This document shows positions 44,855-50,046 of a stretch of DNA of 64,000 nt, piece by piece. Below the pieces are notes generated by a model that was not told the origin of the DNA, searched no databases, and saw only the letters and a program-made list of their open reading frames with translations. Origin of the DNA: Paenibacillus hexagrammi (GTDB lineage Bacteria > Bacillota > Bacilli > Paenibacillales > NBRC-103111); the NCBI RefSeq assembly GCF_021513275.1, contig NZ_CP090978.1, positions 2,852,001-2,916,000 of the forward strand. The letters are read 5' to 3'. The position numbers and the translations under genes were made by a program. The stretch's first letter is position 1. Every line of letters begins with the position of its first letter.

Positions 44855-45081
44855 AGTTATCACCTCAATTTTCCACCAATTTATTATGAATTGAACAGCT
44901 TTCTGTAACTTTCCCCCATTGTACCACGTCCAAAACATGTAAAGGAGCTGACGGAACCATGCAAAGTAAATGGGTAGGTTATACAGCTATTATCACATTA
45001 AGCCTGAGCCTAATTGCGCCTGGAGCCCACAGCCAAGCTGCTGAGGTAAATGTGCGAGTTACGTTACCGGATTTTCAAGTT

Positions 45082-45097
45082 ACTCAACTTTCTCACC
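45082..45097. repeat. Left terminal inverted repeat of the IS
   Basis: ACTCAACTTTCTCACC, the exact reverse complement of 48568-48583. Confidence 0.88.
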
Positions 45098-48000
45098 CTG
45101 AAATACCCAATAGGCCCTTATAAAACCTGGGTAAACTGGCAGTGAATTTATCAAAGATCTCCTGGAACTGCTGTTCAGTAAGGAGAAGGACCTCTTGAAT
45201 TGCTTGTTTTAACAAATCAATCAACAACAGCATAGCAGTTGCAAGCTTAATATCTTCAAGTTCATCACAACAAAAGTAAAACAAATTCCCTAACGTTCGC
45301 GGATCTTTGTTTTCTCTGGACTCCATTGCGAGAAAGAGATACCGAGTAAATACAAGGCTCGTATGAGCAAACATCATATCGTAAGAACGTCCTTGGAATT
45401 CCTTGGCTAGACGCAAATAAGATTTACTCATTTTGAAAAACACTTGTCGGGTAAAGAATTGGCGCGGTGTCGTTTGCGACCCGTTTCCAGCCCCTCCCCA
45501 TAAGAACTGCTCGTGAGGTTTTCCCTCAAGCAGCTCACCCAGTAAACTTCTTCAAAAGGGTTATGAGACCTATCAAATGGCGATCACTTTCATCGGTATC
45601 CTTCTACGTTCTTGAGGGGATGGACTTTCCAATCCCAATATAGTCCCAATACACCGTAGAGGTACTCATTACTCCATCTTCGCCATCCGACACTACGCTT
45701 TCTTCTCCGTTTTCTTCTCGTCAGCAAGGTTCGTATTTTCATCTCCGTGTAGTCACGCACCTCGCTAAATGCATCACTCGAATTGCCAACCCGAAAATAA
45801 TTCACCCATCCAGCTAATACGGCATTGATCCGTTTCACCATGTCTTTTGCCGGGGTTGCCCCGCCATTTTGGATTAGCTCGCGGATTCGCGCCTTGACTG
45901 CAATGCGTGCTTTCTTCTTCGGTGTCATGAGGATGAAGTATCCAGTTCCACTACGGTTTGGTACTCGCCTTAAGTCAAATCCAAGGAAAGCAAATGCCTC
46001 GCCTTTCAGGACGTTAACCATCCGAGTTTTCTCCAGATTTAGTTCTACACCCAACGGTTTCAGCTGTTCCTGAAGTCTTTTAAGAGCTAGTTCAGCCCAC
46101 CCTTGTTTGCTGGAGTGTCCGCTTACGGTGATCACCATATCATCGGCAAATCGATGGTAATTGACCGCTTCGTAACTGCCTTCTGCCGTTTTACGCCGAA
46201 TGGCATCAAATGCCCAGTCTACCTCATTCAGGTAGATATTCGAAGCTAATGGAGAAAACGGCCCACCTTGGGGTACGCCGATCTTTCCCGCCGCTTTTAT
46301 CACCTGTTTGATCAGGTGCATCACTTGTGGGTCTTGGATGCGCTTCGACATCTTCTCCAGTAGAATCGAGTGCCGGATTGTATCAAAGTATCGGGATAAA
46401 TCGACATCGATTACATTGGTCATGCGTCGCAGTACACTTCGTCTCACTTCGGCTAATGCTTGGTGAGGTGAGCGCTTCGGTCGAAATCCATACGAATTTG
46501 GGCAGAAGTCAGCTTCAAAGATCGCTTCGAGAATCAATTTTAGAGCACCTTGTACAACGCGATCCCGGATTACGGGAATTTGTAAAGTTCGCATTTTGCC
46601 GTTCGCCTTCGGTATATCTACCTTCCGGTTGGCTTGAGGTTGGTACGTTCCCGTTTGGAGTTCTTCTTGGATGCCTTCGAGAAACGGGATAACACCCTCT
46701 TTTTCCACGTCTGCGAAGCTTTGTCCGTCTATGCCTGCGGCACCGCCGTTTTTCTTCGCATGTCGGTACGCTTCATGGAGAGTCGTTATGCTGGTTATGT
46801 GGGTAAATAGACCCCAGAACCGATGCGTAGGTTCAGACTTCGCCTTTTGATATATCCGTTGCCTCAGTTCCTGCAGACTGATGGGTGTTTTTGTCATTTT
46901 CACCCTTGCCTCCTTTGGTTATACGGATTTGTTTACCGGTCCGGACCCTTCCCTCCCCGCGCGTTTTGCTGCACGCGGATCTAAAGTACTACGGTCCGAT
47001 CCGCCACCCTGACATCTGCATGTCCCATTTCCCGATCACGGTTATAGGGAATGCCTCCTCGGTGAGCTTTCTTCACCGGATGCCGAGGGCTTCTCCAGTT
47101 TCCATAACATCTTTCACTCCATGTCGCCGCTGATACCCCGCCGGTGAGAACTGCCGTTTCAGACTCTTTCGGTCAGTTCTTGCTGCTTTCGCGCGTTATC
47201 GACCGTCTCAGCCACCGGAATTGCGTGTAACGAGGCTACGTCTGCGTTCACTGTACGTTACAACCTGGAATTTTGCCCATGCTCCTTTTGAGCGTGATGT
47301 CAGAGGGCTTCACCGTCTCGCTTTCGCTCCACGGCGCCTCTCAGGCTACGGGAGTCTAGTCTTTTCTCCCGGTCGGACTTTCACCGACTAGATGTTGTGT
47401 CCTTAACTGGACACGCCAATGTCCCAGCGTTTGCCGTAAATTCGAACGATCTCTTCTTCAGTCAGTTCGAGGTCGGTAGTGAGCAGAGCTAGCCAACGCC
47501 TGGAACGATTTCGATCTCGAACAAATACGATTCTTGCCTGTATCTCCATCTCTTGCTCGGCGGCTCCAAGTGTCACGATAACGGAAGCTAGCATTTTCGC
47601 CTTTCCTCGCTTTTTGCGGACTGCAGCGTACAATTGAGATAAATTCAACTTACTTCCGTTGTAGGTGTAGAACACTTTGGGCATTGCTTTAAGCATGCAA
47701 ATGACGTGGATGCCTTCCTTAACGATGCTCATGATCGTAGATGGAAAGCTGAACCAACTGTCAAAAAGAAGATAGGAAGCTTGAACTCCAGCAGAAAGAG
47801 CCTGCTGGAGCAGTTCCAACAAGGCTTTTGAAGATTTCAGCATACTCTCCTGACGACGTTTGTAGCCGACCGTTCGCTTGTCGATGTTACCATTCATTTC
47901 AACAAATCGGTTCTTTGAATTAGGAGAGCTGAGCAGTGAAAAGCAAAGTGGAACAAAGGTATTACCGTCCGACCAGCCTAATGTCAGCATGCGAAAACCA

Positions 48001-48446
48001 CGGACAAACTTGCCGCTCGTGTGGTCATGAACATTAGCCAGGAGTTCAACAGCTTTACTACGGGCACGTGAGAAGAGTGAGTCATCGAGAATGAGCACCT
48101 TCACACATTCCTTGGATGACAAGGGCTCAAGCTTGGATTGGATAAGTCCGCAGCTTAAGAGGAGCAGAAATTTACGCCAGTTAAAGCGACTCGAATTCAG
48201 AAAACGATAAACAGTATCTTTTCCAGGGCGATCTGCATCATCTTCTTTTTGTAGAGTTTGATACAGATTTTTGCTGCTAAAGACCAACAAGAAAATGAAT
48301 TTGAAAAGCTCAAAGCAAGTAAATCCGCATTCCTTTATGAAATTGGATTGCTTGAGCAATTTGCTGATTCGATGCTGCGAAAGAAAATGATCTACTTTTG
48401 AAGTTAACTGCTGTTCAGAAGCCGAGGGATTTGATACGATAGACAT
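45093..48446 (-). CDS. IS4-family transposase, two exons split by a group II intron
   Basis: Exon 1 runs 48446-47417, exon 2 45445-45093. Unspliced, exon 1 reads into the intron and stops at 47403 (DIGVSS). DDE residues: Asp in VLILDDSLFSRARSK, Asp in LLFDSWFSFPS, and Glu in the IS4 signature Y-2-R-3-E-6-K, here YGKRWDIEVFFKMSK. The intron lies inside the Glu codon (G|AA), so the last catalytic residue exists only after splicing. Joining the exons gives an exact frame of 460 residues. The start at 48446 (MSIVSNPSAS) follows GGAAGG by nine bases. Confidence 0.9.
45504..45536 (-). ncRNA. Group II intron domain V
   Basis: On the minus strand, GAGCTGCTTGAGGG, loop AAAA, CCTCACGAGCAGTTC: the 33-34 nt domain V hairpin with the AGC triad near its base and the internal bulge. 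It lies 58 bases before the inferred 3' splice site, leaving room for domain VI. Confidence 0.88.
45590..46903 (-). CDS. ltrA: Group II intron reverse transcriptase/maturase
   Basis: 437 residues. RT blocks: PKANGKMRTLQIPVIRDRVV, YGFRPKRSPHQALAEVRR, DVDLSRYFDTIRHS, GVPQGGPFSPLASNIYLNE; the catalytic box reads HRFADDMV (FADD rather than YADD). After it come LGFDLRRVP and the maturase X region with GWVNYFRVGN and a basic stretch RRKRRRKRS. No HNH endonuclease domain follows, as in several bacterial intron lineages that use replication-fork priming. It should assist splicing and, by reverse splicing, mobility. GTG start at 46903, with AGGAGG upstream. Confidence 0.95.
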   Translation of the reverse strand: MKMTKTPISLQELRQRIYQKAKSEPTHRFWGLFTHITSITTLHEAYRHAKKNGGAAGIDGQSFADVEKEGVIPFLEGIQEELQTGTYQPQANRKVDIPKANGKMRTLQIPVIRDRVVQGALKLILEAIFEADFCPNSYGFRPKRSPHQALAEVRRSVLRRMTNVIDVDLSRYFDTIRHSILLEKMSKRIQDPQVMHLIKQVIKAAGKIGVPQGGPFSPLASNIYLNEVDWAFDAIRRKTAEGSYEAVNYHRFADDMVITVSGHSSKQGWAELALKRLQEQLKPLGVELNLEKTRMVNVLKGEAFAFLGFDLRRVPNRSGTGYFILMTPKKKARIAVKARIRELIQNGGATPAKDMVKRINAVLAGWVNYFRVGNSSDAFSEVRDYTEMKIRTLLTRRKRRRKRSVGWRRWSNEYLYGVLGLYWDWKVHPLKNVEGYR

Positions 48447-48567
48447 GAGAAACATCCTTCCTTGGTGGATTTTGTGTGGTAGCTTAATTTTACCAAAGGA
48501 TAGGGTGTTTTTCTGTTCTTTTTCGTGGCAATACCTCGTCAGATCAAGGGTTTATTGCAGTCTTTAA

Positions 48568-48583
48568 GGTGAGAAAGTTGAGT
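48568..48583. repeat. Right terminal inverted repeat of the IS
   Basis: GGTGAGAAAGTTGAGT, the exact reverse complement of 45082-45097. It lies upstream of the transposase start, so it may also overlap its promoter. Confidence 0.88.
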
Positions 48584-50046
48584 TAGTTTAAACGGCCACA
48601 AGGTTGAGAATCAAAATCGAGAGTACCCACTGTTGGTTTATCATGATATTACCTATGTTCCGATGACATGGTACGACTCCAGATTACTCGGTTTGGAAGC
48701 GACTTGGTCGGCTGAACATGGCTTAGACATTAAACAAAACCAAGTGGCCTCCTCGTATATGCACTATCAATTTGAACATCATAACGGCAACACATATACA
48801 GCCGAGGTTCCTGCTTCAGAAGTGACCATTAACGGCAAAGTGATAGATAACACGAAAGAAGAATACCCGTTGTTAAGCTTCCGTGATGTCACCTACTTCC
48901 CTCTCACATGGCGCTTTGCGCATGATGAATTCGGATGGGACTATGAGTGGGACCACACAAACGGTTTAAGTATTTCATCCAACAATACGCAGGTTCAATC
49001 CGTTGATCTCCCTTCTTATGCCTCAGAGAATGATGTGGCACTTTATAAGGGCTACTACTATTTCGTGGAAACCATAGACACAACGAACCACGTATATCGA
49101 GCACCTGTACAGCATCCTTCCGATAAGGAAGAGATTTATTCCTATAACGCTCATACCTATGAAGGGCTTCAGAAGCAGATAACCTTCCAAATCCGTGATA
49201 ACGCGTTATGGTTCACCTATCACCTTGGCGGAAATATTATGGGACACGATGAGTATGTAAAAATCAGCGATGACGGCAAGGCTGAGCTCCTGCATCAAGG
49301 ATATCTGGATTTCCGGGATACTCCGTATGGAACTTTGTACATAAATTTAGGAGCTTCCGCATTTGAAGGCGGCAACCTGTATTTGTCAAATGATTCTGAT
49401 GGAACGAACCGCAAAACAATAGGTGAACAAAAACTGATGTATGGAGTTGTAAATGGCGGAGCCGCACGAGATGCAGCTTCTTCCCTTGCGGTAGTCGGTG
49501 ACGATGTCTATGTTATTGCAACTGGCATGAACAGTTCAGGTTCTGCGGCAAGTGAGATCTATAGAATAAATCTGAAAACAAATAAAACCGAGAAGATCGT
49601 CAACTCGAGTGTCACCCAGTTTCAGATCATAGGTCAGAAATTATACTTCGTCAAATACGATGATGACTTGTTATATGAATCCGCTTTGGACGGATCTGGA
49701 GAAGTAAAAGTGTCCGACTTTGCCGTGTCATGGTTTGGCGGCTTAGGCGGCCAAATTTTTTACACAACGAAGAAAGAAGCCAATCAATTCGAGCTGTATC
49801 AAGCCGATACCACAGGAAAGGATTCACTTGTATGGAAGACACCAGTCAGAGAAGTGAAAGTGCTACAAGATAAACTTGTCTGTCGACTCAGCGAAAATGA
49901 TGATTACGGTGCCGTATTCTTAGACGATTCTGGCAAACTTCTTTTAAAAGTAGCGGATCCTGTATCGCAGCTCCTTACTTCGGATGATGGGATTCTACTC
50001 ACGTCCTCCAAAGACTCCTCGATGAAGCTCATACGCTGAACAGTTA

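Follow-up and report, generated by a model that had tools for sequence, protein, structure and literature searches.

A group II intron of Paenibacillus hexagrammi splits the predicted catalytic Glu codon of an IS4-type transposase, and introns with related maturases occupy the same codon in transposases of several families. We consider it highly probable that this endonuclease-less intron retrohomed to the Glu codon through EBS pairing, and that spliced RNA alone would yield the transposase. The window, the whole stretch of DNA that was analysed, spans 64,000 nt of the P. hexagrammi genome, and the coordinates of the intron and its host element are collected in Table 1. Throughout the text, a slash within a sequence marks the insertion point.

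Table 1 Features of the group II intron and its host insertion sequence, in window coordinates
Feature	Position	Strand	Description or basis
Terminal inverted repeat, downstream end of IS	45073..45119	.	47 nt, 74% complementary to the other arm
3' exon of transposase	45093..45445	-	AA of Glu codon, 116 codons, stop; NF049925 from profile position 331
Group II intron, 1971 nt	45446..47416	-	Begins GCGUG, finishes CCGAC
Domains V and VI	45446..45538	-	Rfam RF00029, 41.9 bits (cut-off 40, barely exceeded)
Predicted bulged branch A	45452	-	Base 7 counted from intron 3' end
Intron-encoded reverse transcriptase/maturase, 437 aa	45590..46903	-	RVT_1 and GIIM
Predicted EBS1 (CGAU)	47198..47201	-	Intron alignment, pairing counts
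U preceding EBS1	47202	-	Could pair with +1 A of 3' exon
Predicted EBS2 (ACG)	47224..47226	-	Pairs with target -12 and -13; scan of 104 position pairs
Ribozyme core, domains 1-4	47253..47390	-	Rfam RF02003, 115 bits
5' exon of IS4-type transposase	47417..48455	-	346 codons and G of Glu codon; NF049925, 447.7 bits (cut-off 250)
Terminal inverted repeat, upstream end of IS	48546..48592	.	Partner arm of 45073..45119

A group II intron within a predicted catalytic codon

The window element is a group II intron, with ribozyme domains at both ends and a reverse transcriptase/maturase inside. The RF02003 and RF00029 matches lie at the two intron ends on the correct strand, and do so likewise in the three other copies of the genome (L002-L004). 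Group II introns usually begin with GUGYG, end in AY and carry a bulged branch A in domain VI. The 5' end found here, GCGUG, is a variant of that form common to relatives (GUGUG occurs in Cupriavidus, L079 and L077), the 3' end is AC, and the bulged A is present in the predicted domain VI; the domain V/VI fold has a z of -3.54 with the branch A unpaired. The maturase matches TIGR04416 at 356.6 bits (cut-off 300) and has an FADD motif at residue 252. A domain search of this protein found RVT_1 and GIIM alone and no endonuclease domain.

Two lines of evidence fix the intron boundaries independently of the reading frame. In the tandem copy L045, one intron abuts the next as CCGAC/GTGTGTCC, and the intron-free alleles L122, L127 and L128 match the flanks exactly. 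The sequence-only reading had placed the intron at 45441-47424, which locates the element and takes in a few exon bases too many on each side. A 5' boundary two bases downstream (GUGUC) was rejected, as it breaks the frame and conflicts with both the tandem copy and the intron-free alleles.

The 5' exon finishes ...TGG GAC ATT G and the 3' exon opens AA GTG TTT TTC, so the G/AA split of the Glu codon in YGKRWDI-E, and its phase, are borne out as first read from the sequence. The pattern Y-2-R-3-E-6-K, the IS4 transposase signature, fits across the junction as YGKRWDI-E-VFFKMSK; the Glu interrupted in this IS4-type transposase is predicted to be catalytic. The unspliced frame reads ...WDI-GVSS-stop, with the stop at the fifth codon, just where it had been announced. 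With 48455 as the start codon, the joined exons encode 346 + 1 + 116 = 463 aa; starting at another ATG, three codons downstream, gives the 460 residues originally counted. Homologues that are intact have 460-463 aa (P0124, P0125).

For the host element, the only candidate target-site duplication found was a 6-base match, and none is claimed because one of its copies falls inside the inverted repeat. The IS apparently interrupts a plus-strand gene (window 44959-45123 and 48633-50039), which consists of a 54-aa start with a signal-like N-terminus followed by a 468-aa open frame (MVYHDITYVPMTWYDSRLL...).

Near-identical introns in divergent hosts

Searched at the DNA level, the 6.64 Mb assembly yielded four full intron copies (L001, the window copy, and L002-L004) with 0-2 differences in 1971 nt. 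The same codon is split in all four, as YGKRWDI/E, YRERWAI/E, YAKRWRI/E and YNMRWGI/E. Their host 5' exons align just locally, with residue identities from 19/60 to 43/211, and NCBIfam assigns the window host to IS4_4, the L002 and L004 hosts to IS4_1 and the L003 host, below cut-offs, to an IS701-like family. The L002 element has one intron-free copy (L122), with exact flanks of 1007 nt upstream and 425 nt downstream. Two intron-free copies of the L003 element (L127 and L128) have exact upstream flanks of 1291 and 1294 nt and a downstream flank of 386 nt. In these alleles the junction shows no gain or loss of bases, and the reading frame continues across the Glu codon without a stop. No second copy of the L001 or L004 host element was found in the genome.

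The near-identical copies and the intron-free alleles together point to mobility of the intron, and the simplest reading would be that it entered one copy once the L002 and L003 elements had already multiplied. Every identified host is an IS4/IS701-like transposase with a homologous site, which could also be expected if the intron had entered a single ancestral transposase and both had since been passed on as a unit. Such co-descent is very improbable, however, with intron copies that differ by 0-2 bases in hosts that barely align, and with intron-free alleles whose flanks are exact. We reject it for P. hexagrammi on these grounds. It is contradicted in Cupriavidus necator A5-1 as well, where identical introns occupy IS4_3- and IS4_1-type hosts and an antisense copy in another gene has one difference.

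The Glu codon as a shared insertion site

A maturase scan of reference genomes returned 68 loci, which were picked by maturase and hence independently of insertion site. With the four P. hexagrammi copies and the plasmid locus L119, 73 loci were examined; a 5' end was readable in 41, a 3' end in 49 and neither in 18. The latter are mostly relatives at 35-49% (L080-L089, L092-L094, L098), and the remaining unread loci are cut or broken (L095, L097, L102, L103). Of the 41 introns whose 5' end could be read, 38 follow R-W-x-[IV]/E in frame, which amounts to 29 of 32 distinct peptides; 24 of the 32 have the Y of the signature as well. L047, an antisense insertion in a non-transposase gene, is one of the 38. 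The three exceptions are L059, at an unrelated site, L063 (stop-W-T-V), which is perhaps a decayed transposase, and L079 (R-W-G-T). The 3' exons begin with AA or AG in 45 of 45 distinct cases, with K at E+7 in 33. Aligning the targets of related introns, as had been suggested from the sequence alone, returns the same R-W-x-[IV]/E site in 38 of 41 and makes the YREK region a shared site. The proposal of a homing site shared across IS4 relatives stands for these and for all four genome copies, but the site is not strictly a transposase one, as L047 illustrates.

As judged from record titles, sites of the RWxIE type occur in Bacillota, Pseudomonadota, Acidobacteriota, Bacteroidota, Planctomycetota and Desulfobacterota, several of them on MAG contigs for which single assignments are uncertain. 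Four genomes pass the limit in a Bacillota sample of 398, P. hexagrammi included, and the other three do so at 49-51%. In phage records the relatives are at 36% only (4 records at the limit used). Besides the window's own, at least 119 homologous clusters are listed, of 7993 proteins that passed.

When 31 upstream exons (the window and 30 others) were scanned, 26 matched a transposase family, some below its cut-off. The scanned exons of L041, L047, L058, L068 and L069 had no transposase family match, and L069 gave SEC-C-type matches alone. Transposase support thus extends to 30 of the 41 introns once four copies are included that have a host end identical to one of those scanned; six further short host ends (L059, L061, L063, L074, L077, L119) lay outside the family scan. 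Profile matches that reach the junction end at one position per family: 290 for IS4_1, 281 for IS4_3 (Tn5-like) and 328 for IS4_4, and those of Pfam DDE_Tnp_1 (PF01609) end at 163 (profile ends uniform, 6 of 6 in one scan). Two matches deviate: that of L079 ends at 288, and that of the window copy, where the query continues into the intron, at 330. Some L003 and L039 matches end within the exon.

Target recognition by predicted EBS pairing

In an alignment of 25 introns, a CGAU loop, the predicted EBS1, can pair with the final four exon bases, AUYG. Over 36 distinct targets, EBS1 pairs at 137 of 144 positions and 29 targets pair in full, whereas shuffling gives means of 127.6 positions and 21.8 full targets (100,000 shuffles, in which relatedness is not kept; 0.0002 and 0.00085, respectively). 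The second EBS1 base is associated with target position -2 (Fisher p 0.006), and introns at GTGG or ATAG (L049, L052, L057, L077) have the EBS1 CUAU. The sole retargeted intron, L059, has the EBS1 CCGC at the target GCGG, and its EBS2 has also changed to match (UGGG vs CCCG).

Seven of the 36 targets have one EBS1 mismatch (L050, L055, L060, L061, L063, L065, L079). For L050, an exchange with another intron copy may be the source of the mismatch, because its 3' flank equals that of L049 while its 5' flank differs. Four identical intact IS4_4-type elements in which ATAG/AA is empty (L105-L108; C1:3344749, 3501306, 4518327 and 5118591) agree with the pairing rule; L060, an ATAG site occupied by a CGAU intron, is a counterexample.

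An ACG loop, the predicted EBS2, pairs with positions -13 and -12, where most Arg codons have their CG, in 34 and 36 of the 36 targets. It is the best of 104 scanned position pairs, a signal that is weak alone and rests mainly on L059, and the fold of the EBS region is no better than that of shuffles (z 0.96). Between the EBS1 and EBS2 targets lies TGG, which is absent in L059 and is kept in L047 though no protein requires it there; its retention hints that the intron reads the TGG too. The predicted EBS1 and EBS2 pairings would explain the site.

In the mechanism that we propose, the intron would have reached the Glu codon by retrohoming, that is, by reverse splicing into DNA, with EBS1 and EBS2 guiding it by base pairing to the DNA that encodes Arg-Trp-x-Ile-Glu. 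IS4 and IS701-like transposases have this stretch in conserved form, presumably because their activity requires it, and its codons vary little, Trp having one codon and Ile and Glu few. One intron RNA could therefore enter many different insertion sequences. Splicing of the transcript would then rejoin G/AA, and the transposase would be made from the spliced RNA alone.

Transposases as carriers of the target motif

The genome holds 15 free matches to CGNTGGNNNATYGAR, as compared to one for the reversed control pattern. Eight lie at transposase Glu codons and seven elsewhere, the latter as judged from the reading frame. All four occupied sites are in transposases, for which the hypergeometric probability is 0.128. 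Within the genome, this comparison did not show that transposases are preferred over and above the DNA motif; since the value is not significant against the free matches, the DNA motif alone would suffice, with transposases mattering as its multicopy carriers. Five additional good-match sites are free (L129-L133), so the genome is not saturated.

The same counts suit a plainer account in which the intron has no tie to transposases and inserts at any CGNTGGNNNATYG/AR, hitting transposases as multicopy carriers of the motif. We give this account close to an even chance. The antisense insertion of L047 outside a transposase adds to it; set against it are the 30 of 41 relatives' introns that sit in exons with transposase support, L047 alone being shown elsewhere with this motif. 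The question is one of recognition, and the account is compatible with retrohoming to the Glu codon as the best explanation.

Proposed splicing and gating of the host element

Given the early stop in the intron, a working transposase would require RNA splicing, and we infer that splicing takes place and gates IS movement. On the sequence-only reading, IS activity might further depend on an active intron RNP. A precedent is RmInt1 in ISRm2011-2, for which the available text of PMC4238363 reports correct splicing in vivo for <1% of exons and that poor splicing is thought to restrain the IS. In light of that figure, the statement in the sequence-only reading that splicing restores the codon may refer to what the RNA is able to do more than to what it commonly does.

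Homing could have proceeded as proposed and yet be followed by poor splicing, in which case the intron would mostly silence its host and form no gate, being a near-dead-end in a disposable gene. We regard this as somewhat short of an even prospect. Besides the RmInt1 precedent, it is in line with the finding that none of the four host elements of this genome carries the intron in two copies, while the L002 and L003 elements do have copies free of it. The reverse transcriptase frame, domains V and VI and the branch A look intact, however, and C. necator A5-1 has the same element with the same intron twice for two elements (L044/L046, L048/L066), an arrangement that repeated homing would also explain.

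Relation to known introns

Introns at fixed positions in transposases are already known, as the accessible portions of the reports on E.c.I4 and RmInt1 make clear. E.c.I4 occurs as near-identical copies at specific transposase positions in IS629, IS911, ISEc16 and ISEc31 (PMC3522654) and resembles the present case in that one intron occupies fixed positions in the transposases of several ISs. It differs in its IS3-like hosts and, in the text available, no catalytic codon is named, whereas the present hosts are spread over several IS4/IS701-like families and are split at a Glu predicted to be catalytic. RmInt1 is likewise a group II intron with stops inside a transposase gene, and IS movement needs its splicing; it is a class D/IIB3 intron with a single named host IS, as opposed to an FADD-type lineage in many host ISs (PMC4238363, as available).

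By motif and domain content, the window maturase fits group g2, the endonuclease-less introns in which FADD replaces YADD and which have RT and maturase domains (PMC3552965). The likeness consists in FADD, RVT_1 and GIIM and in no endonuclease domain having been found; target sites for g2 introns are not given in the available part of that paper. Class C (IIC) introns insert after a terminator hairpin, according to the portion of PMC4424553 at hand, and this type of insertion was rejected for the window copy and its relatives, which sit in coding sequence at RWxI/E. The open-access literature, as far as its available text goes, yielded no account of group II introns that home to the catalytic codon in IS4-type transposases. 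Nor did a homing site on the catalytic Glu codon common to several transposase families and phyla turn up in print there.

Sister introns

Sister introns (L110-L114, L116, L120) share about 46-51% maturase identity with the window intron. RF02003 was found in each scanned locus (L110, L113, L116, L117, L120); the scanned sisters belong to the same ribozyme family as the window intron and the targets are different. Flanks were read for the seven sister introns. Three (L110, L116, L120) lie directly after a domain V-like sequence of another intron and are nested, L112 lies behind another intron copy, and L111, L113 and L114 lie behind another hairpin.

A tentative extension, which we hold to be rather doubtful, is that the lineage homes into the catalytic cores of other mobile elements, this clade into transposase Glu codons and some sisters behind domain V. 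A host IS could then not mutate away from the intron, because a change in a catalytic part costs activity, and would come under splicing control.

If true, these proposals would mean that a retroelement RNA stays mobile in changing hosts by targeting a motif fixed by enzyme chemistry, and fixed also by the low codon degeneracy of Trp, Ile and Glu, common to several transposase families. They would provide a natural, directly testable case of splicing that lets one mobile element gate another, and a set of natural EBS-target pairs, the retargeted intron included, for studies of group II intron specificity.

Additional arrangements in Cupriavidus necator

Three further arrangements were observed in C. 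necator. The L047 intron of strain A5-1 runs antisense to the chromosomal gene of a large ATPase/TPR-like protein, and its target is the common DNA motif, CGATGGAATATCG/AA, outside transposase genes. The L045 locus of the same strain holds two full introns head to tail with zero bases between them. On plasmid pplas2 of strain UYPR2.512, the 5' flank of L049 equals that of L051 (862 nt) and its 3' flank equals that of L050 (355 nt), a pattern that recombination between intron copies, with a swap of exons, could have left.
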